NCBI RefSeq assembly: GCF_005771435.1
Contig: NZ_VANI01000011.1
Location: forward strand, 124,001 to 188,000
Length of the DNA stretch: 64,000 bases
From: Microbulbifer harenosus
GTDB taxonomy: Bacteria > Pseudomonadota > Gammaproteobacteria > Pseudomonadales > Cellvibrionaceae
Direction of reading: 5' to 3'
A program made the position numbers and the translations under genes. Below, piece by piece: positions 42,645-64,000 of the stretch. How positions within the stretch are numbered: the stretch's first letter is position 1; every line of letters starts with the position of its first letter. Under the pieces are notes generated by a model that was not told the DNA's origin, did no database searches, and worked only from the letters and a program-made list of their open reading frames with translations.

Positions 42645-43457
42645 TCAGTGTTCGCGGGCGCCAAGAGCTCGATTGATGACGCCCGCCAGTCTAACGCCGC
42701 CCTGGCGCAGGCGCTGTTCAACAAAGGCCCGGTTGCGCTGGTAGTAGTCTTCCCCCAGAAATTTCTCCGCTGTGTACGCATAACTGTGTGCCAACGCGTG
42801 GGACTCTGCCGCCCACTCTTCGCTATGGCTGCGCTGCCAGGCTGAACGCTGCGCCTCGGTGATTTCCCATTGTTGCCGTTGGGCATACTTCCTCCAGTCT
42901 TCTGCAAAACCGGCGGGTAAATAGACGTCCCATAACGCATGCAGATTGGTGGGGAATCCGAAGAACTGCACTTCTATATCATTGCCACCGCGGTCCTCCC
43001 GCAGTCCGGTGTGCATCGGTTGGTGCAGGTCGCCCACAAAATGGGCAACAAACAACAAGGCCTCTGCGCGCTCGCTCTCTGTGGTATCCGGGCTGCGCAA
43101 AATTTCTTCATATTTCTCCAGTGCTTTCACAATACAGCCCGCGGGCGGGCAGTCTCTGGCTTCCACGTAGCCGTGCCAGTCGCGTGGAAGGTTGATGTAG
43201 TGCAGTGGTGCCGTCCATTTGTATTGCTCATCGTGGCGAATACGGTCGGCCCAGGTACTGGCTTCGGCCAGCCCAGGTTCCCCGGCAATCTGCAGCAGTT
43301 CAGTTACCCGGGATTTCACCTCCGGTTGCAGAAAGCCCCAGGCAATTTCTCCCACAATCTGGTGGCCATTGTCACCCCACGCCTGCGCATTCGCAGCGCT
43401 CAGAAGCAGAGAGAGGTTGAGGAGTATCCCGGCCAGGAAACGTTTTTCTGACTTCAC
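42645..43457 (-). CDS. Secreted S1/P1-type single-strand nuclease
   Basis: A 270-residue protein with a signal peptide (LAGILLNLSLLLSAANAQA) whose cleavage leaves the mature N-terminal Trp that binds zinc in this family (WGDNGHQIVGEIAW). Other zinc ligands are visible: ASTWADRIRH, WTAPLHYINLP, LFVAHFVGDLHQPMH and NDIEVQFFGFPTNLHALWD. S1/P1 nucleases cut single-stranded RNA and DNA to 5'-mononucleotides and also remove 3'-phosphates. It is divergent from the large TonB receptor, with two RutR-like sites between, so it is a good candidate for the extracellular step of nucleic-acid feeding. Confidence 0.93.
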   Translation of the reverse strand: MKSEKRFLAGILLNLSLLLSAANAQAWGDNGHQIVGEIAWGFLQPEVKSRVTELLQIAGEPGLAEASTWADRIRHDEQYKWTAPLHYINLPRDWHGYVEARDCPPAGCIVKALEKYEEILRSPDTTESERAEALLFVAHFVGDLHQPMHTGLREDRGGNDIEVQFFGFPTNLHALWDVYLPAGFAEDWRKYAQRQQWEITEAQRSAWQRSHSEEWAAESHALAHSYAYTAEKFLGEDYYQRNRAFVEQRLRQGGVRLAGVINRALGAREH

Positions 43458-43516
43458 TTTGCGCCCCCTTTGTCATTTTTGGATTCCCTATATTACTCGC
43501 ATTCCGTCATAAAAAG

Positions 43517-43532
43517 CTGAACAAGCGGACAG
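43517..43532. promoter_or_regulatory. RutR-like operator, nuclease-proximal site
   Basis: CTGAACAAGCGGACAG matches 9 of the 14 defined bases of the RutR box TTGACCA-NN-TGGTCAA. It shares the flank AAAAAGCTGA with the site at 51632. It lies 60 bp upstream of the nuclease start. Confidence 0.5.
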
Positions 43533-43567
43533 GTTTTTGGCATGAAAGTTGCTGGATCATTTTTATG

Positions 43568-43583
43568 TTGTCCTATTGGTCAA
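43568..43583. promoter_or_regulatory. RutR-like operator, receptor-proximal site
   Basis: TTGTCCTATTGGTCAA matches 12 of the 14 defined bases of the RutR box TTGACCA-NN-TGGTCAA, the best match in the window. It lies 155 bp upstream of the TonB receptor and 110 bp upstream of the nuclease gene. Confidence 0.65.
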
Positions 43584-43738: not shown

Positions 43739-46700
43739 ATGAAACGCAGTCTTTTCCCACATGGACTTTTGTCTGTCGCCGTGATGTCGGCGATGGGTGT
43801 GGCGCCGATGGCCATTGCTCAGGAAACCAGCACCGCCATTCGCGGTATCGTGACCGGTGCGGATGGCCAGCCAGTGGATAATGCCAAGGTCATCGCCATT
43901 CATACCCCGTCCAACAGCCGTCGTGAAATTCTCTCCAGTGAATCCGGCCGCTTCAGTCTGAATGGCCTGCGTGTGGGTGGGCCCTACACTATCCGCGTGG
44001 AGTCGGACGAGGGCGAAGAGGTTCTGAATGACATCTACCTGAGCCTGGGCTCACCGCTGACTCTTCCCATTGACCTGGGTGCGTCAGGCCCTGAATTGAA
44101 TGCGGTTGAAGAGGTGGTCGTGGTTGGCGAGGTTCAGACTTACACCAACCGCGGTTCCAGTGGTGTCTTTGGTGAAGATCAGATTGCGAACACCGCCACT
44201 TTCAGTCGTGACATCAAAGAGGTGATTCGCGCCAATCCGCTGGCGTCAGTCAGCCCTGATGGCGTCGAGCTGAGCATCGCCGGCAGCAATCCACGCTACA
44301 ACTCCATCACCATCGACAGCGTGGGCATCAACGATACCTTCGGCCTCAACTACAGTGGTTATCCTACCACCCGTCCACCCATTGCCCTGGATTCCGTGGA
44401 GCAGCTCTCCGTTGAGTACGCGCCCTTCAATGCGCGCAAGGGCAAGTTTTCCGGTGGCAATATCAATGCCGTAACCAAGTCCGGTACCAATGAGTTCCAT
44501 GGCAGTGCATTCTTCGAATCCGTGCCCTGGACTGGAACTGCGAAAGACGACAAATTGTCAGAAGACGGCTCGGTAACTGAGTACGATATCGACAACGAAG
44601 AGGAAACTGTGGGCCTCACGTTCAGCGGCCCCATCCTTCAGGACAAACTGTTCTTTTTCACTTCCTATGAAAAATGGGAAGAGGAACTGGTGTTCAATTA
44701 CGACCTGGACTCGCTGGCCGGACACCAGGTTACTACCGCAGAGCGGGACCGGGTTCTGCAGATTATGCAGGATGTATACGGCGTGAGCGACGGCATCGGC
44801 GCGGCGCCATCTCCCGATAGCGACGAAAAACTGCTGGTAAAACTTGACTGGAACATCAGCGACGACCACCGCGCCGACTTCACTTACAACAAGCAGGAAG
44901 GCAAGGCCGGTCGCAACTACACCGATGACAATGGAACTCTCCGCCTCTCGTCCAACTTCCGCGTAGCCGCGGAGGACAACACCTTCTACTCGGCACACCT
45001 TTTTTCCGATTGGAGCGATGCCTTCAGTACCGAGGTGAATCTTTCCTACAAGGACTATGCGCGCAGTTCCGTGAACAGTTCCAACTGGGGAGAAATCAAT
45101 ATCCAGACCGAGGACGGCAGTATTGTTGCCGGCCAGGACGACAGTTACCAGGCGAATGAACTGGCCAACGAGGTCTGGACCTTCGGTGTGCATGGCACCT
45201 ATCTGGCGGGTGATGTCCAGTACCGTTTTGGTGCGGAAATGGAAGACACCTGGAACTACAACCTCTACGGCCGCAATGCCGACGGTACCTGGTACTTCGA
45301 TAGCATCGACGATTTTGAAAATCAGGTTATCGGCGACTTCACCTATGGCAATGCCTACACCAATGATATTCAGGACATAGCCTACGACGTCAGCGCTACC
45401 ACTTACGCCCTCTACGGCGAGGCTACTCTGGAACCCTTCGCCGGTTTCGAACTGGTGGCCGGTTTGCGCTATGAAACCCAGTCTGTCGACAGCACCCCGG
45501 GTCTGAACCAGAACTTCCTGGATACCTACGGTTATGCGAATACCGAGAACCTGGACGGCCGCGATATCTGGCTGCCGCGTGTCGGCTTCACCTGGGACCT
45601 GCGCGACGATCTGACCCTGCGCGGCGGGGTGGGTCGATACAGTGGCGGTACGCCGTTGGTGTGGATTTCCAATGCCTACACCAACGATGGCACCACGCTG
45701 GACTCCGTTACTCTCAGCAGCCTGGATCCGGGTTTGGTGGATTTTACGCGTGTGCCCCAGTTGGCCATGGACGCCTTGGCCGCCGGTACCGGTAGCACCA
45801 ACAACATAGATCCCAACTTTGAGCTGCCATCGGACTGGCGCTATCAGTTGGCCGCGGACTACGCCTTCGATATTCCCGGCGTGGGCGAGGATTTCAACTG
45901 GACGACGGAACTGACCTACACGGACCGCCAGGACTCCGTGTACTGGCGCGACCTGTCGCGGGTAGACAGCGGCAACAGAACCGTGGACGGGCGCATTATC
46001 TGGGACAATGTCTACACCGGCACTGAGCTTGAAGGCAACTACGATCTGGAACTGACCAACGTGGACGATGGTGGCCGGAGCATCATCTGGACCACCTCAC
46101 TGGATAAGGCCTTCGACAACGGTCTCTCTTTCAACCTGTCCTATACCAATCAGGACATTACCGAGGTCAACCCGGGCACCAGTTCCACCGCCACATCCAA
46201 CTACCAGTACGAGGTGACGGAGAACCGCAACGAACCGCTCGAGGGTACGGCCTACTACGAAGTAGAACATCGCTTTGTGCTGAACCTGGGCTACCGCACG
46301 GAATTTGTGCCTGGTTACGCCACCAACTTTAACCTGTTCTGGGAGCGCCGCTCCGGGCGCCCATTCTCCTGGGTGCTGGGTTCTTATCGGGATGACGATC
46401 TCGGCGACCAGAGCGCGTTCTACCAGTCTGACGTCTACCTGCCCTATATCCCCACTGGCGCGGACGATCCCGCGGTGGATTTCGCCAGCGGTCTGAGCTA
46501 CGAGGAGATCATGGCATTTGCGGAGGCGGCAGGTGTGGCTGGTTATGCCGGTGGTTATGTCGACAAGTACTCCGGCACCCAACCCTGGGTAACCACCATG
46601 GACCTGGCCATTACTCAGGAAGTGCCTGGGTTCCTGCCGGAGCACCGCGGTATCCTTTACTTCACCATCGACAATTTCGCTAACCTGCTGAACGATGACT

Positions 46701-46897
46701 GGGGTAAGGTTTACGACCTCGAGTTTCCGCAAAAGCTGCTGTATGACTACGACGTAAACGCGAATGGTCAGTACGTCTACCATGCACCCTTTGGTGGCAC
46801 GAATGATGATGGTTCCCTGAATGCCAACAACTATGGCCGGTTCCGCGCCGAGCAATCCACCTGGCGTGTGAAACTGGGCCTGAAATACAACTTCTGA
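43739..46897 (+). CDS. Large TonB-dependent receptor with carboxypeptidase-like N-terminal domain (Oar-like)
   Basis: A 1052-residue receptor. Signal peptide (LLSVAVMSAMGVAPMAIAQ); a carboxypeptidase D regulatory-like domain (AIRGIVTGADGQPVDNAKVI, about residues 30-115); a plug with RANPLASVSPDGVELSIAGS and RKGKFSGGNINAVTKSGTNE; then a long barrel ending WRVKLGLKYNF. This architecture is common among receptors importing oligomers. I start at ATG 43739 with GAGGAG upstream. The RutR-like sites upstream, the divergent nuclease and the 5'-nucleotidase downstream suggest import of nucleosides, bases or oligonucleotides rather than chito-oligosaccharides, despite the nearby chitinases. Substrate is inferred. 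Confidence 0.9.
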   Translation: MKRSLFPHGLLSVAVMSAMGVAPMAIAQETSTAIRGIVTGADGQPVDNAKVIAIHTPSNSRREILSSESGRFSLNGLRVGGPYTIRVESDEGEEVLNDIYLSLGSPLTLPIDLGASGPELNAVEEVVVVGEVQTYTNRGSSGVFGEDQIANTATFSRDIKEVIRANPLASVSPDGVELSIAGSNPRYNSITIDSVGINDTFGLNYSGYPTTRPPIALDSVEQLSVEYAPFNARKGKFSGGNINAVTKSGTNEFHGSAFFESVPWTGTAKDDKLSEDGSVTEYDIDNEEETVGLTFSGPILQDKLFFFTSYEKWEEELVFNYDLDSLAGHQVTTAERDRVLQIMQDVYGVSDGIGAAPSPDSDEKLLVKLDWNISDDHRADFTYNKQEGKAGRNYTDDNGTLRLSSNFRVAAEDNTFYSAHLFSDWSDAFSTEVNLSYKDYARSSVNSSNWGEINIQTEDGSIVAGQDDSYQANELANEVWTFGVHGTYLAGDVQYRFGAEMEDTWNYNLYGRNADGTWYFDSIDDFENQVIGDFTYGNAYTNDIQDIAYDVSATTYALYGEATLEPFAGFELVAGLRYETQSVDSTPGLNQNFLDTYGYANTENLDGRDIWLPRVGFTWDLRDDLTLRGGVGRYSGGTPLVWISNAYTNDGTTLDSVTLSSLDPGLVDFTRVPQLAMDALAAGTGSTNNIDPNFELPSDWRYQLAADYAFDIPGVGEDFNWTTELTYTDRQDSVYWRDLSRVDSGNRTVDGRIIWDNVYTGTELEGNYDLELTNVDDGGRSIIWTTSLDKAFDNGLSFNLSYTNQDITEVNPGTSSTATSNYQYEVTENRNEPLEGTAYYEVEHRFVLNLGYRTEFVPGYATNFNLFWERRSGRPFSWVLGSYRDDDLGDQSAFYQSDVYLPYIPTGADDPAVDFASGLSYEEIMAFAEAAGVAGYAGGYVDKYSGTQPWVTTMDLAITQEVPGFLPEHRGILYFTIDNFANLLNDDWGKVYDLEFPQKLLYDYDVNANGQYVYHAPFGGTNDDGSLNANNYGRFRAEQSTWRVKLGLKYNF

Positions 46898-47028: not shown

Positions 47029-48624
47029 ATGGCCAAACAGAAACTACATTCGCAAGGCATCGGTTTTTACACAGCATTGCTGGTGGCACTGCTACTGATT
47101 TCCGGTTGCACACCTGAAACGCCCGCAGCGCAATCCGACGAGCCTGTGCGCCTCACCCTGTTGCACACCAACGACAATCACGGCCGCTTCTGGCCCAACC
47201 AGTACGGCGAGTACGGTATGGCCGCGCGCAAGACCCTGATCGACAGAATTCGCGCGGAAGTGGAGGCGGATGGAGGCTACACCCTGCTGTTGTCCGGTGG
47301 CGATGTGAATACCGGTGTGCCGGAGTCCGACATGCAGGATGCCGAACCGGATTTCAGAGGCATGAGCCGCATGGGGTACGACGCCATGGCGGTGGGCAAC
47401 CACGAGTTTGATAATCCACTCGAGGTCATCAGGAAACAGCAGACGTGGTCCAGTTTTGATTTTCTGTCAGCGAATATTTACGACGGCAGTGGCGAGCGTC
47501 TGTTCAAACCCTACCGGATTTTCAATAAAGGTGGTGTACGTATCGCGGTCGTCGGACTGATTACCGAGTCCACCCGTTTTATCGGCAACCCGGAATACGT
47601 CGAGGGGCTTGAATTTGTCTTACCGGAAAAAGAGATGGCCACGCTGTTGCCAGAACTGAAGCGCCAGGCGGACGTGGTGATCGCGCTCACTCATATGGGG
47701 CACGAGATGCAATCCATCGGTACAGATGTCGCCCTCGCCAAAGCCGTCGATGGCATCGACCTTATCGTCGGCGGCCATTCACAGCAGCCGGTGTGCACCG
47801 ATAGCGAGGGCGCGTTGCTTGCGGATTATCAACCGGGAGCGCCCTGCAAGCCCGACTTCGAAAACGGCACCTGGATCATGCAGGCGCACGAATGGGGAAA
47901 ATATGTCGGCCGCGCGGACCTGGTCATCGAAAAGGACTCTGTTCAGCTCGTCGATTACCAGTTGATTCCCGTCAACCTGAAAACCGGGCGAGATGAACAT
48001 GCGGAAATGGTCCAGGCCAGTATCCCTCCGGATGCGGAATTGCAGGCCTTTCTTCAGGACTTTCAAGACAAAGGCGGCGAAGCCTTGCGCCAGGTCATTA
48101 CCCGTGCGGAAGCAACCTTTGACCGCCGCGACAAACGCCGTCCCTCCAACGTCAGCCCGCTGGGCAGCCTGATCACCCAGGCATTCAGGCAGTTTTCCCG
48201 CGCGGATATCGCCATTACCAACAGCGGTGGTATTCGAGACAACCTGTATGAGGGCGATGTCACGGTCAAATCGCTGATGCAGGTCATGCCCTTTGCCAAT
48301 ACCGTCGGTTATGTGGACTTAAATGGCGAAGAGCTACAGCAGTATTTCGAGGCGATCGGACTGTCGGGTGGCAACCAGCGTGGCATACAGTTTTCCGGTA
48401 TGTCGTTTACAACCGATGGAGACATTATTGTCGGCGATGAAAACCAGCCGCTGGACCCGGCAAAGATATACCGACTGGCGACAAACAGTTTCCTCGCCGC
48501 CGGCGGTGATGGTTATCCGTCTCTATTGGATAAGCCAACCTATGTGAACAGCGGGGTTGTGGACTTTACCACGGTGCAGCAACTGCTGGCCGGAAGGGAG
48601 AGTATATCGCCGGCACAATTCTGA
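47029..48624 (+). CDS. 5'-nucleotidase / UshA-like metallophosphatase, lipoprotein
   Basis: A 531-residue protein. A lipoprotein signal (FYTALLVALLLISGC, Cys near residue 26) leads into the metallophosphoesterase domain: LLHTNDNHGRFW, LSGGDVNTGVPES, AVGNHEFDNPLE, ALTHMGHEM and GGHSQQPVC. The C-terminal substrate-binding domain follows (NVSPLGSLITQAFRQFSRAD, IAITNSGGIRDNL and NSFLAAGGDGYPSL). It removes phosphate from 5'-nucleotides to give nucleosides at the cell surface or in the periplasm. It follows the TonB receptor on the same strand and would act on the products of the S1/P1 nuclease. Confidence 0.93.
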   Translation: MAKQKLHSQGIGFYTALLVALLLISGCTPETPAAQSDEPVRLTLLHTNDNHGRFWPNQYGEYGMAARKTLIDRIRAEVEADGGYTLLLSGGDVNTGVPESDMQDAEPDFRGMSRMGYDAMAVGNHEFDNPLEVIRKQQTWSSFDFLSANIYDGSGERLFKPYRIFNKGGVRIAVVGLITESTRFIGNPEYVEGLEFVLPEKEMATLLPELKRQADVVIALTHMGHEMQSIGTDVALAKAVDGIDLIVGGHSQQPVCTDSEGALLADYQPGAPCKPDFENGTWIMQAHEWGKYVGRADLVIEKDSVQLVDYQLIPVNLKTGRDEHAEMVQASIPPDAELQAFLQDFQDKGGEALRQVITRAEATFDRRDKRRPSNVSPLGSLITQAFRQFSRADIAITNSGGIRDNLYEGDVTVKSLMQVMPFANTVGYVDLNGEELQQYFEAIGLSGGNQRGIQFSGMSFTTDGDIIVGDENQPLDPAKIYRLATNSFLAAGGDGYPSLLDKPTYVNSGVVDFTTVQQLLAGRESISPAQF

Positions 48625-48685: not shown

Positions 48686-50104
48686 TCAGACGGCGGCCAG
48701 CTCTTTACCCAATGCATCCGGTTCCCGGGCGGTAAAGCCGCGGGTTTCCAGTGCAAAGGCAACTCGCAGGCACAGGTCTTCCCGCCAGGGCGCAGCGATG
48801 ATCTGAACACCAATCGGCAGGCCGCTTTCTTCATCCAGCGTTGGCACCACACAACTCGGCAGACCGGCAGCGGAAATGGGCTGGGTAAAGTAACCCAGGT
48901 TCGCACGCAGGGGTTGTGCTTCGCCCTGGATGGTCAGGATTTTTTCACCCATGCGGGGCGCCACACAGGGCGTGGCCGCGGCGACAATCACATCCACATC
49001 ACGGAATACTTCCGCCGCTTTTCTGGCGTACCAGTGCCGCACCTGTTGTGCGCGTGCATACCAGCTGGCCGGCAGCAGGGCGCCGGCGATAAAACGATCG
49101 CGGGTATCCGGATCAAAGTCCTGGGGGCGAGTGCGCAGACGCGGCAAATGCAGACGGCTGCCCTCCACATTGGTAATCAGGTAGGCCGCACAGCGGCCCT
49201 CCTGGGTGCCGGGTATCTCCACCTCCGATGTGCAATTCAGCGCGCGGCAGACTTTGTCTACCGCACGCGCCGCCGGGGGATAGCTTTCCAGAGAAAAGTA
49301 GCCGCCGGCGCGTCTGATTCTCAGGTTTTCCAGGCCTCGCTCCAGTGCGCCGATACAGTCCAGTGCCGGCCGGTCGGCACAGGCGTGGTCACTGTTGCTG
49401 TAGCCTTGCATTACGTCGAACGCGAGGGCCAGATCGCGGCTGGTACGCGCCATGGGTCCCAGGTGATCGAGACTGTCGCTGAAAGGATAGGTGCCGCTGC
49501 GGGGCAGGCGGCCGTATGTGGGTTTGAGGCCGAAAATTCCGCAGAAAGAGGCGGGCACACGGATCGATCCGTTGGTGTCGGACCCCAGTGCCAAAGGCAC
49601 CAGCGTGCCACCCAGCGCGCTGCCGGATCCGGAGGACGAGCCTCCGCTCATACGCGCGGTGTCCCAGGGGTTGGCGCAGTTGCCGTAGTGCGCGTTTTCG
49701 CCGGTAAAGTCGTAGGCGTATTCCCCCATGCCGAGGGCGCCGATCAGTATTGCCCCCTCCGCTTCCAGGCGGCGGATCAATAGCGCATCGTCCCGTGCGG
49801 GCGCGTGGTCGGCATTGATGGCGGAGCCTGCGAGCGTGGGGAGGCCGCAGATGTCGAACAGATTTTTTACCGCGAAGGGGACGCCGGCGAGCCTCCCCGG
49901 CTTTTTTCCCCGCGCCAGTTGCGCGTCGATGTGTGCTGCCCGCGCCGTCGCCCGCTCCGCCAGCACGGCGGTAAAGGCGTTCAACGCAGGGTTCATTCGG
50001 GCGATGCGCGCGAGGAACATATTCACCACTTCGCGCGCACTGAAGTGGCCGGCGCTGACCCCTGCGGCAATATCTCCTGCGCTGGACAACGGTAGATCAC
50101 TCAC
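48686..50104 (-). CDS. hpxY: AtzE/HpxY-type amidohydrolase (amidase signature family)
   Basis: A 472-residue amidase-signature enzyme. The catalytic Ser-cisSer-Lys triad is visible: Lys in GVPFAVKNLFDICG and the Ser pair in MSGGSSSGSGSALGG. Its start overlaps hpxX by 4 bp (ATGA), the order known for the oxalurate-utilising hpxXY pair of Klebsiella and for atzG-atzE. It is the last gene of the leftward puuE operon. Role at the oxalurate step is inferred from this pairing and from the neighbouring ureide genes. A relative, AtzE, hydrolyses carboxybiuret-type compounds. Confidence 0.88.
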   Translation of the reverse strand: MSDLPLSSAGDIAAGVSAGHFSAREVVNMFLARIARMNPALNAFTAVLAERATARAAHIDAQLARGKKPGRLAGVPFAVKNLFDICGLPTLAGSAINADHAPARDDALLIRRLEAEGAILIGALGMGEYAYDFTGENAHYGNCANPWDTARMSGGSSSGSGSALGGTLVPLALGSDTNGSIRVPASFCGIFGLKPTYGRLPRSGTYPFSDSLDHLGPMARTSRDLALAFDVMQGYSNSDHACADRPALDCIGALERGLENLRIRRAGGYFSLESYPPAARAVDKVCRALNCTSEVEIPGTQEGRCAAYLITNVEGSRLHLPRLRTRPQDFDPDTRDRFIAGALLPASWYARAQQVRHWYARKAAEVFRDVDVIVAAATPCVAPRMGEKILTIQGEAQPLRANLGYFTQPISAAGLPSCVVPTLDEESGLPIGVQIIAAPWREDLCLRVAFALETRGFTAREPDALGKELAAV

Positions 50105-50334
50105 GATGTGGTCTCGGTAGTTGTGCGCTCCCCACCGCTATCCGGCGTGAACGTGCCGGCCAGCACCAGGCTGTCCGGGTCCAGGTCGGCGGCCTCGATA
50201 ATATCCGCCATACGCGCTGCATTCGCCAGGTGCAGGCAGACACCGGCTTTCCACTCCTCGCGCACGGGAATATCTAGGATTGTCTGCATTAATTCCAGGT
50301 AGGCCGGCGGATCAATAGCATTTTTATTCGGCAT
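50101..50334 (-). CDS. hpxX: HpxX/AtzG-like (DUF4089) accessory subunit
   Basis: A 77-residue protein (MPNKNAIDPPAYLELMQTIL...) with the DUF4089 pattern DPPAYLELMQTILDIPVREEW and CLHLANAARMADIIEAADLD. Such proteins are partner subunits of AtzE-type amidohydrolases (AtzG with AtzE; HpxX with HpxY). It overlaps hpxY by 4 bp, consistent with a 1:1 complex. Its usual length is 60-80 residues, so this is full. Confidence 0.85.
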   Translation of the reverse strand: MPNKNAIDPPAYLELMQTILDIPVREEWKAGVCLHLANAARMADIIEAADLDPDSLVLAGTFTPDSGGERTTTETTS

Positions 50335-50355: not shown

Positions 50356-50649
50356 TCAATCCACGCCATCGCACAGCAACATATCGCACTGATAGCTGTT
50401 GTTCCGCCGCATATTGTGAATATCCGCAAGCGCGGGGTCCGCGAGCCAGGCCTGGGCCCTTTCGCGGCTCGGATACTGCATGATCACAATGCGCTCGGAA
50501 GACCAATCGCCGTCCAGCGTCTGCGGTTTACCGCCGCGTACCAGGTAGCGGCCGCCGTAATGCGCAACCGATGGGGTGATCAGCTCGATATAGCGACGGT
50601 ACTCGTCCGGATTCCTGATTTTGATATCCACGATAACGAATGCGCTCAC
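50356..50649 (-). CDS. DUF1330 family protein
   Basis: A 97-residue ferredoxin-like-fold protein (VSAFVIVDIKIRNPDEYRRY...) with YGGRYLVRGGKPQTLDGDWS and ERIVIMQYPSRERAQAWLAD, the DUF1330 signature. I choose the GTG at 50649, with AAGGAG six bases upstream; a longer frame to 50757 would overlap puuE. It lies between puuE (10 bp upstream) and hpxX (21 bp downstream). In the Klebsiella hpx cluster this place goes to HpxZ of another family, so DUF1330 may substitute for it. Function unknown. Confidence 0.82.
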   Translation of the reverse strand: MSAFVIVDIKIRNPDEYRRYIELITPSVAHYGGRYLVRGGKPQTLDGDWSSERIVIMQYPSRERAQAWLADPALADIHNMRRNNSYQCDMLLCDGVD

Positions 50650-50659
50650 AGCGGTCTCC

Positions 50660-51631: not shown

Positions 51632-51647
51632 CTGACCAAGTGGATAA
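51632..51647. promoter_or_regulatory. RutR-like operator upstream of puuE
   Basis: CTGACCAAGTGGATAA matches 11 of the 14 defined bases of the RutR box. The flank GCAAAAAGCTGA closely resembles that of the sites at 43517 and 60965. It lies 48 bp upstream of puuE. Confidence 0.62.
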
Positions 51648-51855: not shown

Positions 51856-51947
51856 GATTTGGCGCAAATGTTGCAGCCTGCAACAAAGCACAAACTCGCG
51901 CAGCGTATACAGAAAGGCAGCCAAATGGAAATCGTTGGGAATTATTC

Positions 51948-55941: not shown

Positions 55942-57158
55942 GTGTCGGGCGACTACTGCAACGCTGTGAACTGCTCGCATCCATTACCGCTATCGAAGGT
56001 GGTATTTGTCGCACCTACCTCACGGAAGAGCATCGCCGCTGCAACCGGCAGGTGATGCAATGGATGCGGGAGGCCGGTATGGAAACTCATACCGACGCCG
56101 CCGGCAACTGCTGGGGCCACTATGCGGGCAGCGATATGGATGGGCAGACTCTGTTGCTCGGGTCGCATCTGGACACGGTTCCAGGGGCCGGCCGTTACGA
56201 CGGTATCCTCGGTGTGCTGGCAGCCATCGAGGTCGTTGCGCGTTTCCATCGTCGCGGCAGGCGCTTTCCTTTTCATATCGATGTGGTGGGATTTGCCGAC
56301 GAGGAGGGGAGTCGCTTCGGTGCCACCCTGTTGGGCAGTCGCGCCGTCGCCGGTCTGTGGGATTCAGCACTGTTGGCGCTGTGTGACGCTGAGGGTGTAT
56401 CCATGGCCGAAGCGTTCGTCGAGTTTGGTCTCGACCCCGCAAAGGTTGCCACGACCTCCCGCGCTGGCGCGCGGCTGCTGGGATACTGGGAGCTGCATAT
56501 CGAACAGGGACCGGTGCTAGAGGAACTCGATTTGCCACTGGGGGTGGTGAGCGCCATCGCCGGCGCGCGACGATGCCTGTTTACACTGCAAGGCAGCGCC
56601 GGTCATGCCGGTACGGTGCCTATGACTATGCGCCGCGATGCGCTATTGGCGGCGGCGGGTGCCGTGCAACTTGTCGACGCGGTCGCGCGCCGCTGTGGCG
56701 TGGTGGCAACCGTTGGAAACATCGAGGTGTGGCCGGGTGTGGTCAACGTGATTCCCGGGCGCTGCGAGTTTACTTTGGATATCCGCAGTGGCGAAGACCA
56801 GCTTCGCGACCGCGCACTGGCGGAAATCATAGACGGCATTGATGCCCTCTGTGATCGCTCGCAGGTGGCGGTGACGTATCGCGAGATTCACAGCGCAGCT
56901 GCGGTGGCTTGCGCTGCGCGGCTGCGCGAGGCCGGCAGCCGCGCCCTGGCACGCTGTGGGCTTCAGGACTTTTCCCTGCCCAGTGGCGCCGGGCACGATG
57001 CCATGGCCATGGCAGCCATAACCGATGTGGGTATGCTGTTTTTACGCTGTGCGGGGGGAGTCAGCCACCACCCGGAGGAATCCGTCGACGCCGCCGATGT
57101 GGCGTTGGCACTGGATGTGCTCGAGGCGGCGGTGGAGGAGACGTGGGAGCACGCCTGA
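55938..57158 (+). CDS. Allantoate amidohydrolase / M20 family ureide hydrolase
   Basis: A 406-residue M20-type enzyme (AllC/HpxK-like). Dinuclear metal ligands lie in LLLGSHLDTVPGAGRYDG (His and Asp), GFADEEGSRFG (Glu pair), GYWELHIEQGPVLEE (His) and AGGVSHHPEESVDA (His). AGTVPMTMRRDALL and AGHDAMAMAAITDVGMLF are typical. It hydrolyses allantoate to ureidoglycine. The start is a GTG overlapping the preceding stop (GTGA), so it is translationally coupled to the adenine deaminase. It follows the aminotransferase and completes allantoin to oxalurate with puuE and hpxJ. Confidence 0.9.
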   Translation: MSVGRLLQRCELLASITAIEGGICRTYLTEEHRRCNRQVMQWMREAGMETHTDAAGNCWGHYAGSDMDGQTLLLGSHLDTVPGAGRYDGILGVLAAIEVVARFHRRGRRFPFHIDVVGFADEEGSRFGATLLGSRAVAGLWDSALLALCDAEGVSMAEAFVEFGLDPAKVATTSRAGARLLGYWELHIEQGPVLEELDLPLGVVSAIAGARRCLFTLQGSAGHAGTVPMTMRRDALLAAAGAVQLVDAVARRCGVVATVGNIEVWPGVVNVIPGRCEFTLDIRSGEDQLRDRALAEIIDGIDALCDRSQVAVTYREIHSAAAVACAARLREAGSRALARCGLQDFSLPSGAGHDAMAMAAITDVGMLFLRCAGGVSHHPEESVDAADVALALDVLEAAVEETWEHA

Positions 57159-57180: not shown

Positions 57181-57816
57181 CTATTTGAGAACGCCATGCA
57201 GGATCAGGCGAATTACATCCTCGATTGCTTCTTCCCGTTGCACTTTTGTCAGGCGCTTGTTGTCGTTCAGAATCCGGATTTGGTAGTCGTAGTCGGCGTA
57301 GTATTGCGTCGTTGCCCAGATCATATTCAAAAGGCTCTGCGGACTGACCGCCTGGATTCTGCCTTCGTCGATCCAGGACTGTATCCGCTGAAGCACGGTG
57401 ACATCGCAGGAAATCAGCGCCTTGCGGATCTCTTTGCCCATTACCGGGCCGCCCTGAATAACCTCGAGCGCCCACATCCGGGAGCCCTTGGGGCGAGAAA
57501 AGGAGTGCTCCATTTTTGCTCGAATATAAGAGCGCAGCACTTCCTCCGGGTCTGATGAGTGATTGAATATCTCTGCATCCTTCTCCCAGCCTTCGAGAAC
57601 ATCCCGCAGTACCACGGTATAGAGATCGGCCTTGGTCTTGAAGTAGTAGTGCACATTTGCCTTGGGCAGACCGGCCTTGTCGGCGATTTCCTGGGTGGAT
57701 GTTCCGTTAAACCCTTTTTCCGAAAAGAGCACTTCTGCCGCGGCGATAATCTGGCGGGTGTTGGCTTCGCGAATGTCTGATTTTCTTGCAGTGCCGGGCT
57801 TTTTTCTGTCGGGCAT
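57181..57816 (-). CDS. RutR-like TetR family regulator
   Basis: A 211-residue regulator, the same length as E. coli RutR (212). HTH: NTRQIIAAAEVLFSEKGFNG and TSTQEIADKAGLPKANVHYY, FKTKADLY. The C-terminal part (YIRAKMEHSFSRPKGSRMWA, MIWATTQYYADYDYQIRIL) matches the RutR/YcdC C-terminal domain. RutR senses uracil and thymine and controls pyrimidine and purine genes. I start at ATG 57816; the open frame upstream would overlap upp. It is the last gene of the leftward nupC-cdd-upp-regulator group, and RutR-like boxes occur at the divergent promoters nearby, so it is the natural candidate for their regulator. Confidence 0.85.
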   Translation of the reverse strand: MPDRKKPGTARKSDIREANTRQIIAAAEVLFSEKGFNGTSTQEIADKAGLPKANVHYYFKTKADLYTVVLRDVLEGWEKDAEIFNHSSDPEEVLRSYIRAKMEHSFSRPKGSRMWALEVIQGGPVMGKEIRKALISCDVTVLQRIQSWIDEGRIQAVSPQSLLNMIWATTQYYADYDYQIRILNDNKRLTKVQREEAIEDVIRLILHGVLK

Positions 57817-57877
57817 AAATGTCTGGCCATACTGGGAAATGATAGCGGGCCATTCTCTCACAAGCGCCCGCAAGCGG

Positions 57878-58513
57878 CTATTTGGTGGTGCCGAACAGGC
57901 GATCCCCCGCGTCGCCAATGCCAGGCAGGATATACCCTTTGCTGTTGAGCTCCCGGTCCAGGGCCGCCGCGTAAACGGTGACGTCCGGATGTCTTTCCGC
58001 GAGTACGGTCAGCCCTTCGGGAGACGCCAGCAGGCAGATAAAACGGATGTTCTTCGCTCCGTGGCGCTTGATTTTGTCGATGGCAGCACAGGCGGAGTGG
58101 CCTGTGGCCAGCATTGGATCCACTACCAGGCAGAGTCGGCTGGATAATTGCTTGGGCGCCTTGAAAAAATATTCCACCGCTTCCAGTGTCTCGCTGTCCC
58201 GGTAGAGGCCGATATGACCGATGCGCGCGGAGGGCACCAGTTCCAACAGTCCGGACAACAGCCCGTCGCCGGCGCGCAGGATGGAAAAAAAGCACAGTTT
58301 CTTGCCCGAAAGCGTGGGCGCTTCCATTTCTTCCAGCGGCGTCTCGATGTTTTTGCTGCTGAGCGGCAGGTCTCTTGTTGCCTCATAACCCATCAGCAGG
58401 CTGATTTCTTTCAGCAGAAGGCGGAATTTTCCGGATGTCGTCTCGCGATCCCGCATGATAGTCAGTTTGTGCTGAATAAGCGGGTGGTCGATCAGTACGA
58501 AATTATTGTTCAT
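57878..58513 (-). CDS. upp: Uracil phosphoribosyltransferase
   Basis: A 211-residue type I phosphoribosyltransferase making UMP from uracil and [26 protein letters not shown], split here as [13 protein letters not shown] and [14 protein letters not shown], is diagnostic. The PRPP loop is [18 protein letters not shown], and the uracil-binding C-terminus is [19 protein letters not shown]. It starts 63 bp after cdd. Confidence 0.97.
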
Positions 58514-58576: not shown

Positions 58577-59548
58577 TCAAACGGTGATTATCCGGGCCGG
58601 GTAGTATTCGGGCGCCACCCCCGGTGCAATAGAGGATAGCAGGGTGGTCACCATCGCCCGTTGACTGATTGTCGCGGCGGACTCTACCAGTGCACAACGT
58701 GCAAGCTTGCGGGAAATATCCTGTGCGGCGCCGGGGCCGCATGCCATGCGGAAATTGGACAGCGCGGCGTGTAACGGCGACAGGCCGGGATTGTGCGCGG
58801 CATTTTCCGCATAGCTGCCGGAAAATATTGAGCCATCTTTGAACTGCAAGGCACAACCGGAATGGTTGCCGGTATAGGGCGCATAGGAAAAACACGCCGC
58901 GTCCAGTGCCCTTAGAATCAGGTGGTCGCGGTTATCTCTTTGCAGCCTCAGCGGTTGAGGCGTGCTGGTCGCCGCCATCATATTGCCCTTCTGGCCGAGA
59001 TCCATGGGGCCGAATGCGCCGGGAAGCAGTTCGGAAATATCCAGTTCGCAGTGATTATTTCGGGGGCCGCCGGGAAAGAGAATGCTCAGGGTGCCGCAAC
59101 CGTGCAGTTCGTAAAGAAACTGCCGGCAGTGACCGCAGGGCGGAGCGGATACTGCCAGGCTGGTCAGGCCGGGTTCGCGATTCGTCCAGGCGTTGGCTAC
59201 CGCGGCCTGCTCCGCGTGGAGGCTGTAGCACAGCGCCTGCTGTGGGAATTCCATGTTGGCCCCCAGGTAGAGCGCGGAAAATCCATTGCTGTTGCGCCGC
59301 TGGCCACGGGCAACGGCGCCGACACGGAAACTGGAGACCGGCGCCACCCCAAAAGCCGCCGCCAATGGCACCAGCTTCAGCATCAGGGTTTCGCTGTCTA
59401 TGTCCAGATCCTCGCAGATACGGAATACCTGATCCGCGCGCATGACTCCGCTGCCGGCTACCTGTCGCAATTCCATGTGAAGCCGCGGGGGGAACTCGTT
59501 TAGTGCTGCCCCGATACTCGGGCAGTTATCTTGCCAGTTGGTTTGCAT
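58577..59548 (-). CDS. cdd: Cytidine deaminase (two-domain type)
   Basis: A 323-residue protein, slightly longer than the 294-residue E. coli enzyme. The catalytic domain holds the zinc motif CYSLHAEQAAVANAW and APPCGHCRQFLYELHGC; the second, inactive domain follows (ALDAACFSYAPYTGNHSGCA, AENAAHNPGLSPLHAALSNF). It converts cytidine and deoxycytidine to uridine and deoxyuridine. It starts 13 bp after nupC and precedes upp. Confidence 0.95.
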   Translation of the reverse strand: MQTNWQDNCPSIGAALNEFPPRLHMELRQVAGSGVMRADQVFRICEDLDIDSETLMLKLVPLAAAFGVAPVSSFRVGAVARGQRRNSNGFSALYLGANMEFPQQALCYSLHAEQAAVANAWTNREPGLTSLAVSAPPCGHCRQFLYELHGCGTLSILFPGGPRNNHCELDISELLPGAFGPMDLGQKGNMMAATSTPQPLRLQRDNRDHLILRALDAACFSYAPYTGNHSGCALQFKDGSIFSGSYAENAAHNPGLSPLHAALSNFRMACGPGAAQDISRKLARCALVESAATISQRAMVTTLLSSIAPGVAPEYYPARIITV

Positions 59549-59561
59549 GTCGCTGTCGGAA

Positions 59562-60770
59562 TTACAGGGAGGTAAAAAATCCGGCGAGCGCTGCGCTCAT
59601 CAGATTGGCGAGGGTGCCAGCCAGGACGGCTTTCAGCCCCAGCCGCGCGATTTCCGGCCGGCGCAATGGCGCCAGGCTGCCGAGACCACCGAGCAATATG
59701 GCGATGGAGGAAAAGTTGGCAAAGCCGCACAAGGCAAAAGTCACTACAACCTGAGCGTGGGGAGACAGTGCCTCTTTGTGACTGACGAAATCCGCATAGG
59801 CGACGAATTCATTAAGTACCAGCTTTTGCCCGATCAGACTGCCGGAAGTGATGCTTTCCGACCAGGGAATCCCGAGGATATAGGCAATGGGTGAAAAAAC
59901 GGCGCCGAGGATGCCCTGCAAAGTCACTTCGGGCAGACCGAACCAACTGAAAACACCTCCGATGGCACCGTTAATCAATGCGATCAGCGCGATAAAGGCG
60001 ATCAACATGGCGCCGATATTGAGTGCCAGTTGCATGCCACTCAGCGCACCGCTGGCTGCGGCATCAATGACATTGGCAGGGCGATCGCGCTCGTCAAAGA
60101 CAATGTCCCGCGGCGTATCCCGCAGACTCTCCTCCTCCGGAATCATCAGCTTTGCCATCAGCAGACCGCCCGGTGCGGCCATGAAGCTGGCGGCGATCAG
60201 GTATTTCAGATCGACGCCCATATTGGCGTAGCCCACCAGCAGCGAGCCCGCGATAGAGGCCATTCCTCCCACCATCACCGCAAACAACTCTGAGCGTGTC
60301 ATTCCGGCAATATAGGGTCGGATAATCAGGGGAGCCTCGGTCTGACTGACAAATATATTGGCGGTGGCGGATAGGGATTCGGTATGCCCGGTGCCCAATA
60401 CGCGGTAAAAGAAGGTGCCGATAACGCCCACAATCTTCTGCATGATGCCCAGGTAGTAGAGAACGGCTACAAGCGACGAGAAAAAAATCAGAACCGGGAG
60501 CACGTTAAAGGCAAAAATAAAACCGAGTTTCTGCTTGCCCAGATCACCGAACAGAAAGCCGATGCCGGCGTCCGCGTAGTTGATGACATGCTGGACGCCC
60601 TCAGACAGCGATGCGAGGGCGGATTGCCCAGCGGGTATATAGAGTACAAGGGCGGCAAAACCGGCCTGTATGGCGAAGGCTCCACCGACGGTGCGTAGCT
60701 TGATGGCTTTTCGGTTTTCCGAAAACAGAACTGCGATCACCACCAGGGCAAACATGCCGATCACACTCAT
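59562..60770 (-). CDS. nupC: Concentrative nucleoside transporter (NupC/CNT family)
   Basis: A 402-residue polytopic inner-membrane nucleoside:cation symporter. CNT hallmarks: [81 protein letters not shown] and [20 protein letters not shown]. It brings nucleosides from the periplasm into the cytoplasm. It is the first gene of the leftward operon with cdd, upp and the regulator, divergent from deoA. Confidence 0.95.
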
Positions 60771-60964: not shown

Positions 60965-60980
60965 TGGACCAGTTGGTTAG
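60965..60980. promoter_or_regulatory. RutR-like operator between nupC and deoA
   Basis: TGGACCAGTTGGTTAG matches 11 of the 14 defined bases of the RutR box, preceded by TGCAAAAAG as at the 51.6 kb site. It lies 85 bp upstream of deoA and 195 bp upstream of nupC. A half-site TTGACC also occurs at 60852-60857, nearer nupC. Confidence 0.58.
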
Positions 60981-61064: not shown

Positions 61065-62399
61065 ATGCTGGCCCAGGAAATCATTCACGCGAAACGCGAA
61101 GGTAGTGCCCTGTCTGCGCGGCAAATCGATTTTTTTGTCAAAGGCATGATGAATGAAAGCATTACCGAAGGCCAGGTGGCGGCATTGGCGATGGCGGTTT
61201 TCTTTCGCGGTCTAGAACGTCCCGAAGCGGTTGCGCTGACACGGGCCCTGCAGCATTCCGGCACCACGCTGGACTGGTCGGCTCTGGACCTGCCAGGGCC
61301 GGTGGTCGACAAACATTCTTCCGGCGGTGTCGGGGATAAAGTCAGCCTGATGCTGGCGCCGATGCTCGCCGCTTGCGGTACTTTTGTGCCGATGATCTCC
61401 GGCCGCGGCCTCGGCCATACCGGGGGCACCCTGGATAAAATGGACAGTATTCCCGGTTATAACACCAGTCCGGACATACCCACGTTCCAGCGGGTGGTCC
61501 AGCGGGCCGGCTGTGCCATTGTCGGCCAGACAGCGGAACTGGCTCCCGCGGACAAACGTCTCTACGGTATCCGCGATGTAACCGCTACGGTGGAATCTGT
61601 ACCCCTGATTACCGCGTCCATTCTTTCCAAAAAACTCTCCGCCGGCCTCGACAGTCTGGTAATGGATATCAAAACCGGCAGTGGTGCATTCGCGGACAAC
61701 TTCCCCATGGCGATAGAACTGGCTACCAGTATCGTCGAGGTAGGTCGCGGGTTGGGGTTGCCGATTTCGGCACTGATTACCGATATGTCCCAGGTTCTCG
61801 GCCCAACCGCCGGTAATGCACTGGAAGTGCGCGAAGTCGTCGATTACCTGCGCGGCGATTTTCGCGATCCGCGTCTCCACCAGGTGGTCATTGCACTCGG
61901 CGCCGAGCTGCTGCAGTTGAGCGGTCGCGCCGACGGACTTGGAGAAGGGGCTGAAATGATGGAGCGGACGTTGGAAAGCGGTGCCGCCTGCGAATACTTC
62001 GCTAAGATGGTGGTGGAGCTGGGAGGCCCGCCGGACTTGCTGGATCGCCCCGATAAACATCTGGCCTGCGCGCCAGTCGTAGTGCCCGTATTTTCTCAAG
62101 ATGTTGGCAGCATTGTTGAAATTGACGTGCGCGCTATTGGCAATACCGTGGTCGAACTGGGTGGCGGTCGCCGTCGCGCCTGTGATCCAGTGGATCACCG
62201 GGTCGGCCTGAGCGACATTCGCGCCCTCGGCGACACCATTGATGCCGGCACACCGCTGGCGATGATCCACGCGGCCAGCGAAGCAGACGCGGAAAGAGCC
62301 CGGTTACGTCTGTGCCGCGCGTTCCGTTTGGGCGAGCGCACCGATGTGAAGCAACAGCCGGTGATCCTGGAGCGGCTCGCCGGGTGCGGAGTCTGTTGA
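61065..62399 (+). CDS. deoA: Thymidine phosphorylase
   Basis: A 444-residue enzyme splitting thymidine and deoxyuridine with phosphate into base and deoxyribose-1-phosphate. Family motifs: AQEIIHAKREGSALSARQID, VDKHSSGGVGDKVSLMLAPM, MISGRGLGHTGGTLDKMDSI and the KTGSGAF phosphate region (VMDIKTGSGAFADN). It starts at ATG 61065 and ends one base before deoB, as the first gene of the deoABC operon. Confidence 0.97.
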   Translation: MLAQEIIHAKREGSALSARQIDFFVKGMMNESITEGQVAALAMAVFFRGLERPEAVALTRALQHSGTTLDWSALDLPGPVVDKHSSGGVGDKVSLMLAPMLAACGTFVPMISGRGLGHTGGTLDKMDSIPGYNTSPDIPTFQRVVQRAGCAIVGQTAELAPADKRLYGIRDVTATVESVPLITASILSKKLSAGLDSLVMDIKTGSGAFADNFPMAIELATSIVEVGRGLGLPISALITDMSQVLGPTAGNALEVREVVDYLRGDFRDPRLHQVVIALGAELLQLSGRADGLGEGAEMMERTLESGAACEYFAKMVVELGGPPDLLDRPDKHLACAPVVVPVFSQDVGSIVEIDVRAIGNTVVELGGGRRRACDPVDHRVGLSDIRALGDTIDAGTPLAMIHAASEADAERARLRLCRAFRLGERTDVKQQPVILERLAGCGVC

Positions 62400-62400
62400 T

Positions 62401-63690
62401 ATGTCCGCGATCGCACCGGCCCAGGCTGGCGAGGCACCGCGCGCGTTTATTCTGGTGATGGACTCCGTGGGCATCGGCGCAACGGCCGACGCCGACCAGT
62501 TTGGCGATGCCGGTGCCAACACCCTGGGGCATATTATTGCCGGTTGCCGCCGCGGGCAGGGCGATCGGGAAGGTCTGCGCCAAGGCCCGTTGGCTATCCC
62601 CAATTTGTTGCGTCTTGGACTGGGGCATGCCCTGAAAGAGTGCGGCGGTGCCGCCGTCGCCGATATTGAATTGCCTCCCGCCGTCGCCGCGGCCTACGGC
62701 CATTGCGCCGAAGTCAGCGCCGGCAAGGACACGCCAAGCGGCCACTGGGAAATAGCCGGCCTGCCGGTAACCTTCGACTGGACCTGTTTCCCCGACACTG
62801 TGCCCGCTTTCCCAACGACACTGACGGATGAGCTGATCCGCCGCGGTGGTCTCCCCGGCATTCTCGGCAACTGCCACGCTTCTGGCACCGCGATTCTTCG
62901 GGAATTGGGTGAGGCGCATATTCAAAGCGGTAAGCCAATCGTGTACACCTCGGCGGATTCGGTCGTGCAGATCGCCGCCCATGAAATTCATTTCGGTCTT
63001 GATCGCCTGCTGTCGCTGTGTGAAACGGCGCGTGTGTTGGTGGACCCGCTGAATGTTGGCCGCGTCATTGCACGCCCCTTTGTCGGCGACAGTGCCGACG
63101 CGTTTGCACGCACTGGCAATCGCCGCGATTACACCACACCGCCGCACGGGACCACGCTGCTGGATCAGTTGCAGTGCAGCGGCGGTCAAGTCGTGGCGGT
63201 GGGCAAAATCAGTGATATTTTCGCCGGAAGGGGAATCGGAAGAAGTATCAAGGCGCACGGCAACATGGCCCTGTTCGACGCCACCCTTGAAGCTGCGGAC
63301 GAGCCGCCGGAGAAACCGACACTGGTGTTCACCAATTTTGTCGACTTCGACACCCTCTACGGCCACCGCCGCGACCTGCCGGGTTATGCTGCTGCCTTGG
63401 AGGAACTGGACCGCCGTTTACCGGAACTGGAAGCGCGGTTGCGCCCCGGCGATATTGCGGTGATTACCGCCGACCACGGTTGCGATCCCACCTGGCCCGG
63501 CAGCGATCACACCCGCGAGCATGTCCCCGCACTCTTTTTTGGCCCTGGTATCAGTCCCGTCCGCCTTGGGCGGCGGCACAGCTTTGCGGACATTGGCCAG
63601 ACCCTGGCAGAGTTTTTCCGGCTGCCACCTCTCAGCAGCGGCTGCTCTTTTTACTCACGCTTGAATTCGAGCGGAAGGCAACACGGATGA
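62401..63690 (+). CDS. deoB: Phosphopentomutase
   Basis: A 429-residue enzyme of the alkaline phosphatase superfamily converting deoxyribose-1-phosphate to the 5-phosphate (and the ribose equivalent). Motifs: ILVMDSVGIGATADADQFGD, GANTLGHI, SAGKDTPSGHWEIAGLP and the metal site VITADHGCDPTWPGSDHTRE. It begins one base after deoA and its stop overlaps the next start (ATGA). Confidence 0.97.
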   Translation: MSAIAPAQAGEAPRAFILVMDSVGIGATADADQFGDAGANTLGHIIAGCRRGQGDREGLRQGPLAIPNLLRLGLGHALKECGGAAVADIELPPAVAAAYGHCAEVSAGKDTPSGHWEIAGLPVTFDWTCFPDTVPAFPTTLTDELIRRGGLPGILGNCHASGTAILRELGEAHIQSGKPIVYTSADSVVQIAAHEIHFGLDRLLSLCETARVLVDPLNVGRVIARPFVGDSADAFARTGNRRDYTTPPHGTTLLDQLQCSGGQVVAVGKISDIFAGRGIGRSIKAHGNMALFDATLEAADEPPEKPTLVFTNFVDFDTLYGHRRDLPGYAAALEELDRRLPELEARLRPGDIAVITADHGCDPTWPGSDHTREHVPALFFGPGISPVRLGRRHSFADIGQTLAEFFRLPPLSSGCSFYSRLNSSGRQHG

Positions 63691-64000
63691 GTCAGAAAAT
63701 GGCATCCACTCCAGACCCACACTGTTTTGCCAACCCGGGTGTACCGTTCAATCCCGAGTGGCTGGCGGATATCCATATAAACCGAAGCGCTGTGGAGCGT
63801 CGCACAGCTTGCCTTGTCGCGCGCCGTTCACTGACAAATCAATGGCAGACGGCCTGGCTGTTGAAAGCAATCAGCTGCATCGATCTGACGACACTGTCTG
63901 GCCAGGATACACCCGGCCGCGTGCGCCGCCTCTGTACCCGGGCGCGAGCACCGCTACCGGAAGTCTTGCAGAAAGCATTGGCTGTTGAATCGCTACCGCT
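63687..64000 (+). CDS. deoC: Deoxyribose-phosphate aldolase (3' end outside window)
   Basis: The frame starts at the ATG at 63687, overlapping the deoB stop by 4 bp, and runs off the right edge after about 104 residues. WQTAWLLKAISCIDLTTLSG, with QDTPGRVRRLCTRARAPLPE following, matches the N-terminus of the long-form DeoC proteins. The enzyme splits deoxyribose-5-phosphate into acetaldehyde and glyceraldehyde-3-phosphate. It completes a deoA-deoB-deoC operon. Confidence 0.92.
   Translation, partial: MSQKMASTPDPHCFANPGVPFNPEWLADIHINRSAVERRTACLVARRSLTNQWQTAWLLKAISCIDLTTLSGQDTPGRVRRLCTRARAPLPEVLQKALAVESLP

Follow-up and report, generated by a model that had tools for sequence, protein, structure and literature searches.

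A stretch of 64,000 nucleotides from Microbulbifer harenosus (the window; G000:C2:124001-188000, in a genome of 4.67 Mb and 67 contigs) enters a locus of ~36 kb and 28 genes that probably serves nucleic-acid utilisation, as a functional counterpart of a polysaccharide utilisation locus (PUL), with three modules joined here, apparently under a RutR-like regulator. We put the probability of this reading at roughly 0.72. According to profile searches, the locus spans positions ~42645 to 78425, with 14.4 kb beyond the window (coordinates past 64000 are counted on from window position 1). It combines a depolymerase, an outer-membrane importer, catabolic genes and a regulator, the secretion and import roles being predicted. 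The case draws on the gene set and its order, collinearity in two relatives, an operator sequence common to the divergent promoters and the neighbourhoods of the receptor family. The enzymes are already known; the predicted role of the receptor and the joint regulon look new.

A first-pass annotation had described a single physical locus running from a secreted nuclease through base and sugar catabolism, and had read it as one feeding pathway. Its observation is confirmed and its interpretation partly supported. All the gene families it named are present by profile searches and PDB matches, the 1052-residue length of the TonB receptor, counted from its ATG, is borne out, and the physical locus holds, with 28 genes collinear in two relatives and a common predicted operator. 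The predicted operator and the neighbourhoods of the receptor family favour one system; a fixed unit is not supported, as relatives with broken synteny outnumber those that preserve it.

In the model we propose, an EndI-CBM DNase and an S1/P1 nuclease would cut extracellular DNA and RNA, the resulting fragments, be they oligonucleotides, nucleotides or nucleosides, would cross the outer membrane through the TonB receptor, UshA would strip phosphate and NupC would take in nucleosides. Cdd, DeoA, DeoB, DeoC and the aldehyde dehydrogenase would convert pyrimidine deoxynucleosides to uracil or thymine, glyceraldehyde-3-phosphate and acetate, with Upp salvaging uracil. Purine bases would enter via the NCS2 permease and pass through adenine/guanine deaminase, xanthine dehydrogenase, PuuD, 5-hydroxyisourate (HIU) hydrolase and 2-oxo-4-hydroxy-4-carboxy-5-ureidoimidazoline (OHCU) decarboxylase, followed by PuuE, allantoate amidohydrolase and ureidoglycine aminotransferase, to oxalurate. 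The RutR-like protein would control all four divergent promoters and respond to a pyrimidine. The features concerned are:

42645-43457, minus: S1/P1 nuclease (PF02265, 236 bits, cut-off 29.5; WGDNGH and HxxxDxHQPMH motifs)
43568-43583: predicted RutR-type operator TTGTCCTATTGGTCAA in the nuclease/receptor gap, differing from the RutR consensus at 2 positions
43739-46897, plus: TonB-dependent receptor, 1052 aa (profile match), predicted importer of nucleic-acid digestion products
47029-48624, plus: UshA-type 5'-nucleotidase lipoprotein (NF007109, 626 bits, cut-off 600; lipobox ISGC by eye)
48686-50104, minus: HpxY/AtzE-family amidohydrolase, predicted oxalurate amidohydrolase (NF006631, 660 bits, cut-off 461; best PDB match 6c62)
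50101-50334, minus: HpxX/AtzG-like small subunit (PF13318, 33.6 bits, cut-off 24)
50356-50643, minus: DUF1330 protein (PF07045, 86.5 bits in the open reading frame 50356-50757), not listed by the first-pass annotation
50660-51583, minus: PuuE allantoinase (TIGR03212, 514 bits, cut-off 424.6)
51632-51647: predicted RutR-type operator CTGACCAAGTGGATAA in the puuE/hpxW gap, 3 mismatches
51942-53501, plus: HpxW oxamate amidohydrolase, GGT family (PF01019; best PDB match 5hft)
53591-54832, plus: ureidoglycine-glyoxylate aminotransferase (best PDB match 3nnk, E 2.8e-161; next 3isl, PucG)
54913-55941, plus: adenine or adenosine deaminase (NF006850, 464 bits, cut-off 419; best PDB match 3ou8)
55938-57158, plus: allantoate amidohydrolase (NF006775, 545 bits, cut-off 479)
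57181-57918, minus: RutR-like TetR regulator (PF08362, 144 bits; true start probably near 57820)
57878-58513, minus: Upp uracil phosphoribosyltransferase (PF14681, 251 bits)
58577-59548, minus: Cdd cytidine deaminase (PF08211, PF00383)
59562-60770, minus: NupC nucleoside symporter (TIGR00804, 479 bits, cut-off 442)
60965-60980: predicted RutR-type operator TGGACCAGTTGGTTAG in the nupC/deoA gap, 3 mismatches
61065-62399, plus: DeoA thymidine phosphorylase (TIGR02643, 626 bits, cut-off 570.7)
62401-63690, plus: DeoB phosphopentomutase (PF01676, 138 bits; position between deoA and deoC)
~63780 to ~64667, plus: DeoC deoxyribose-phosphate aldolase (TIGR00126, 143 bits, cut-off 117; the window ends at 64000)
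past the window, first in the list of genes after deoC: aldehyde dehydrogenase
66918-68375, minus: DNase, EndI + CBM4_9 (signal-like N-terminus, by eye)
68446-69690, minus: PuuD membrane urate oxidase (C-terminal CQGCH, a CxxCH motif)
69847-71202, minus: guanine deaminase
71263-71574, minus: HIU hydrolase
71644-72090, minus: OHCU decarboxylase
72117-76880, minus: XdhC, XdhB and XdhA
77106-78425, plus: NCS2 permease

The profile score and both motifs place the first gene in the S1/P1 nuclease family; its N-terminus, judged by eye, is signal-like with WGDNGH following, and we take the two motifs to be zinc-ligand motifs. For the gene annotated earlier as adenine deaminase, the deaminase family stands and adenine specificity is likely only: NCBIfam and the PDB label of 3ou8 say adenosine deaminase, though 3ou8 is presumably an adenine deaminase. 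The steps from hypoxanthine to allantoin, which the same annotation had placed elsewhere, are encoded from 4.4 kb past the window end.

Modules and their arrangement in relatives

Close HpxW orthologues (76-85% identity) occur in four of the 36 other genus genomes searched, and in two of these four, G019 and G025, all 28 genes stand in the same order. Both relatives carry extra genes between those of the locus (rutR2, a nucleoside hydrolase, a second NCS2 permease and a TauE permease), and the G019 block alone a second EndI gene. A partial form is found in G016, where the receptor, ushA, a rutR-like gene, upp, cdd, nupC, deoABC, aldehyde dehydrogenase and EndI occur together and purine genes are absent; this block adjoins the same right-flank genes and a chitinase, and the nuclease lies on another contig. 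In the window, the deo block separates aah from puuD, two genes that are adjacent in G022.

PF02265 matches were found in 24 of the 37 genus genomes (that of the window included), and in 22 of these 24 the nuclease and a receptor homologue (40-79% identity outside the window) are divergent and within ~0.6 kb of each other. The exceptions are G016 and G012; the latter has a nuclease remnant interrupted by stops, with a short receptor fragment adjacent to it. In G045, from another family, the two genes are in tandem.

Against a fixed unit stand several observations. The purine module of G022 has no deo genes in the 80 kb read, and its nuclease/receptor pair is on another contig. In G033 the purine genes lie 2.2 Mb from the pair, in a shrunken module (G033:C1:3589000-3601500) that keeps hpxXY, hpxW, ade, guaD, the HIU hydrolase gene and ncs2; puuE, ugAT, aah, puuD and xdhABC were not found in the 80 kb read, nor OHCU decarboxylase in the genome. 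Around the pair, no other locus gene was present in the 20-40 kb read in 16 of 16 pair-bearing Microbulbifer besides G000 (the genome of the window), G019 and G025, a count that leaves out G008, G010 and G018 and covers 20 kb in G014 and 29 kb in G003. Furthermore, profile searches gave no NupC-family match in 16 of the 22 pair genomes, so that uptake by NupC of what the receptor delivers, as first proposed, cannot be general. The locus is a mosaic of three modules (nuclease/TonB receptor, pyrimidine/deoxyribose and purine) that are apart in most relatives examined: intact in G019 and G025, partial in G016, G022 and G033, and represented by the pair alone in all 16 others. The first-pass annotation had held that a break between the pair and the hpx/deo genes in every relative would be fatal to its pathway; G019 and G025 do not show such a break.

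Predicted operators and the regulator

The regulator scores above the cut-offs of PF08362 and PF00440, which places it among TetR proteins with a YcdC-like C-terminal domain, and its best PDB match is RutR (3loc). As operator pattern we used the Escherichia coli RutR consensus, taken as TTGACCANNTGGTCAA and fixed before the promoter sequences were seen; the only other pattern tried, that of PurR, gave 0 matches. Allowing up to 3 mismatches, the RutR pattern matched the window at 8 sites (2.5 expected; 1 of 100 shuffles reached 8), three of them in its divergent intergenic gaps within the locus, one in each, and the other five inside deoA or outside the locus. A fourth predicted operator lies in the xdhA/ncs2 region beyond the window end, so that each of the four divergent promoter regions carries one. 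Of the six sites within the locus, four are intergenic (2311 of 35880 bases; binomial P 2.3e-4), as are 8 of 11 in G019 (P 4.5e-4) and 4 of 6 in G025 (P 0.011), where intergenic bases include then-unannotated genes.

Common regulation is also suggested by sequence matches across the four species with the RutR-like gene, in which 12 of 14 divergent promoter regions carry the operator at the same threshold (for ncs2, the G019 and G025 regions were trimmed to 400 bases; the G016 regions were set by hand). The best of 629 other permutations of the same half-site reaches 3 of the 14, although the permutations share the same relatedness among regions. The nuclease/receptor and nupC/deoA regions have the operator in G019, G025 and G016 too, and sites also precede both EndI copies of G019 and the EndI gene of G025.

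Other results count against a joint regulon under a RutR protein. At 152 bits, the regulator is below the cut-off of the RutR equivalog TIGR03613 (368). The puuE/hpxW regions of G019 and G025 miss the pattern, with 4 mismatches at best; the window's own EndI gene has no site upstream; and the 14 regions are orthologous copies of four, so that at most four are independent. Compared with the E. coli RutR regulon, the locus has no rut gene, and the predicted targets are nuclease/receptor, nupC/deoA, puuE/hpxW and xdhA/ncs2. Mosaic RutR regulons with taxon-specific motif changes have been described, in a paper whose accessible portion does not mention a nucleoside receptor (PMC5343134).

A second RutR-like gene, rutR2, stands beside xdhA in G019, G025 and G022 (L036:6169-6861, L040:3261-3950, L044:10357-11022) and is absent from positions 124001-220000 of the window's contig. 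Among the loci fetched, its closest relatives (49-53%) adjoin the receptor in Thalassomonas and Litorilituus. A candidate rutR2 operator resembling CTGTCCANNTGGACAG in the rutR2/xdhA regions of the three genomes came without a control and from orthologous regions only, and was not used.

The receptor family

On balance, though with less assurance than for the locus, we favour the view that this receptor family imports products of extracellular nucleic-acid digestion and, with nucleases, forms nucleic-acid utilisation loci, some of them RutR-like-regulated, of which the window would be an unusually complete example, leading from polymer down to oxalate and acetate under a single predicted regulon. 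The proposed substrate is based on neighbourhood and operator evidence. A model of the receptor (mean predicted local distance difference test score 85.9) has the plug and barrel of a TonB-receptor fold and confirms it as a TonB-dependent receptor; its profile matched no PDB chain by sequence at E 0.001.

We surveyed the best 80 of 217 receptor loci, all on named contigs, from a search with a ten-sequence alignment (14 of the 80 are Microbulbifer); neighbours were grouped from open reading frames of at least 90 aa by unbiased clustering and Pfam, and alignment A2 comprises 38 of these loci plus the window. Family members occur in Microbulbifer, Alteromonas, Pseudoalteromonas, Idiomarina, Rheinheimera, Shewanella and Colwellia relatives. 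A gene for an S1/P1 nuclease (S1P1), an EEP-family phosphodiesterase or NupC lies within ~10 kb of the receptor in 75 of 80 loci, and in 62 of 66 outside Microbulbifer. Individual neighbours are an EEP-family protein with a signal-like N-terminus (32 of 80), S1P1 (31), nupC (23), uridine kinase (udk; 22) and ushA (18), and additionally a phosphonate-binding-like protein (c3; 26), an unnamed protein (c4; 25) and a 2OG-Fe(II) oxygenase (19). S1P1 and EEP never occur together (0 of 80).

Layouts vary: S1P1 is divergent from the receptor in Microbulbifer, ushA..S1P1-receptor is co-directional in Pseudoalteromonas, a divergent nupC-udk operon is present in Alteromonas, udk-nupC lies downstream of the receptor in Rheinheimera, and Thalassomonas and Litorilituus have EEP and a RutR-like gene with deo genes. 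The proximity of nupC is not due to many copies, since it is single-copy in 21 of the 24 genomes searched, and among the listed TonB receptors of G058, G070 and G075 none is within 10 kb of nupC. On a FastTree phylogeny with one receptor per locus (81 rows, long branches flagged), the fewest label changes are 8 for S1P1, 7 for EEP only, 6 for nupC only and 8 for EEP plus nupC. The tree has two deep clades, each with all S1P1/EEP/nupC label types, and labels cluster by kinship; one shared origin does not explain the neighbour set.

Predicted operators are more frequent before the receptor than before control genes, at 17 of 113 receptor upstreams and 31 of 826 control upstreams (3.75%, if anything too high a background because the controls include genes sharing the receptor's promoter region). 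They are concentrated at nupC-linked loci (10 of 23, against 3 of 57 others; Fisher p 1.1e-4, uncorrected for relatedness and from hand-entered lists), with 0 mismatches in the Alteromonas-type upstreams of L115 and L156 and 1 in that of L178.

Alternatively, the receptor may import something else, such as another phosphodiester compound or a cofactor, on which its nuclease-like neighbours act. We consider this unlikely, though a number of results speak for it or against the main reading. Structure searches match generic TonB receptors, those of siderophores, cobalamin and proteins among them, and are uninformative on substrate. EEP proteins include non-nucleases, and the EEP neighbour, a candidate nuclease, has no PDB relative at E 0.01. 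The idea that EEP simply replaces S1P1 was rejected, as 16 of the 20 genomes searched without S1P1 at the receptor locus hold one elsewhere, and the two may not be interchangeable. The nuclease/receptor pair persists in genomes without NupC, and among the 16 lone pairs of other Microbulbifer, 14 have no operator upstream of the receptor (a 3-mismatch site in the other two). Against such a substrate, the receptor repeatedly has S1/P1 nucleases, nupC, uridine kinase, ushA, deoA and RutR-like genes as neighbours, in varied layouts.

Extracellular DNA is a large marine pool of carbon, nitrogen and phosphorus, and the passage of DNA pieces through the outer membrane of Gram-negative bacteria is mostly ascribed to diffusion or Tsx-type channels. 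If nucleic-acid import by this family is confirmed, a recurrent TonB receptor beside nucleases, nupC and uridine kinase would be a marker with which DNA-eating bacteria could be counted in genomes and metatranscriptomes, and would offer a target for knock-out testing; it is the part of the locus most deserving bench work. The window would add an example in which a single predicted operator type unites three catabolic modules. In the accessible text of two papers, nupC, nucleases and TonB receptors are reported in marine bacteria without being linked (PMC9870897, PMC8630151), and we found no description of this receptor or of such a locus in the accessible open-licence literature, supplements aside.

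Three further observations concern the receptor loci. The 2OG-Fe(II) oxygenase sits in the nupC-udk operon (L114, L116, L117, L173 and 15 more); its closest PDB chain is 3on7, thymine dioxygenase is among its relatives, and, speculatively, it might hydroxylate thymine or deoxynucleosides for salvage. The proteins c3 and c4, the latter without a Pfam match, recur upstream of the receptor (L184:7963-8856, L166:7078-8037) and are perhaps a sensor pair. Finally, what appears to be the same Microbulbifer site holds, depending on the species, either of two deep receptor paralogues (L108-L113 versus L142, L144, L145, L147 and L149), with 69-75% or 37-40% identity to the receptor of the window, as if a tandem pair had been reciprocally lost.

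Catabolic routes, related systems and flanking genes

Counting the genes past the window, the purine set is complete, running by way of urate and allantoin as far as oxalurate, the hpx genes included. The chain that best matches the aminotransferase in the PDB, 3nnk, bears the name ureidoglycine aminotransferase. The alignment of HpxW covers the two chains of 5hft, the second of which starts at Thr330 of HpxW; we take 5hft to be the Klebsiella oxamate amidohydrolase. Profile and PDB matches relate HpxXY to the AtzE/AtzG pair of 1-carboxybiuret hydrolase (6c62, 6c6g), with which it shares the amidase VKN lysine (residue 80) and the GGSSSGS motif, but its context is oxalurate and not s-triazine. 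AllG (PF06545), which the accessible text of PMC11326118 gives as part of the oxamic transcarbamylase that splits oxalurate in E. coli, was found in none of six genomes, that of the window included (control match in E. coli), which leaves the AllFGH route without support. HpxXY is therefore expected to hydrolyse oxalurate, and we infer that it yields oxamate, from which HpxW would release oxalate and ammonia. The naming of HpxY is unsettled, because the accessible part of PMC12625717 calls it an oxalurate amidohydrolase in the running text and an oxamate carbamoyltransferase in the legend of a figure; that of PMC4016543 deals with a different purine route.

The DUF1330 gene, in the puuE-hpxXY strand group, is kept in G019 and G025 (88%) and was not located in the regions read for G022 and G033. 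A role for it in a missing HIU/OHCU step was rejected, as both enzymes are present.

The feeding of nucleosides into the purine branch, part of the pathway first proposed, meets a gap that counts against extracellular nucleic acid as its source: PF01048 phosphorylase is absent in the genome of the window and in three of the four relatives searched (G019, G025 and G016; present in G022), with matches in 13 of 14 control genomes. Without a classical purine nucleoside phosphorylase, the purine branch may draw on bases, not on nucleosides. The G019 and G025 blocks hold a nucleoside hydrolase (PF01156, 187 bits; signal-like N-terminus by eye), which is absent from the window's contig stretch. The locus could thus serve only to obtain nitrogen from purine bases and to salvage pyrimidines, with extracellular nucleic acid not the main food. 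Although the NCS2 permease belongs to a base-importing family and a purine route ending in oxalate supplies nitrogen rather than carbon, this appears as improbable as a different receptor cargo, given that EndI DNase, S1/P1 nuclease and UshA lie within the locus, that deoABC and aldehyde dehydrogenase would yield carbon from deoxyribose, and that the relatives have the nucleoside hydrolase.

Mere adjacency of a purine-nitrogen cluster and a nucleoside (deo) cluster, with the nuclease/receptor pair as a separate phosphate-acquisition unit at the edge, is the least probable alternative: the modules do occur apart (the pair alone, receptor, ushA and deo in G016, purine alone in G022), UshA, S1/P1 and EEP can all release phosphate as families, and c3 is found in 26 of 80 receptor loci, but the predicted operator is common to all four divergent promoter regions, the receptor's included, members of the receptor family lie near nupC, udk and deo genes in other genera as well, and full collinearity is preserved in two relatives.

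As a proposed nucleic-acid utilisation locus, the system has the depolymerase, TonB receptor, inner-membrane transporter, catabolic enzymes and local regulator of PULs (SusCD type and gammaproteobacterial TonB type), but it targets nucleic acid, its modules are separate elsewhere, and no SusD is among the profile-annotated genes. The Klebsiella hpx cluster, with 5hft, shares ureidoglycine aminotransferase, allantoate amidohydrolase, HpxW, HpxX and HpxY, whereas the locus described here has XdhABC, the membrane urate oxidase PuuD and, merged with these, the deo genes and the nuclease/receptor pair. In Shewanella, Vibrio and Pseudomonas, feeding on DNA by means of secreted nucleases, a 5'-nucleotidase and NupC follows the same enzymatic logic; to our knowledge the genes there are scattered and no TonB receptor has been assigned.

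Beyond the NCS2 permease lie a Tll0287-like gene, a multiheme cytochrome and a redox enzyme, and still further right are genes that resemble a citrate-cycle core by size and order alone. The left flank (34159-42545), directly before the nuclease, holds two GH18-family genes, one with PKD and CBM5/12 domains, and a 1035-aa Mur-ligase-domain protein that we assume may be a cyanophycin synthetase. At 30260-34048, a 1262-aa protein with a BapA-type N-terminal domain is perhaps a surface adhesin.

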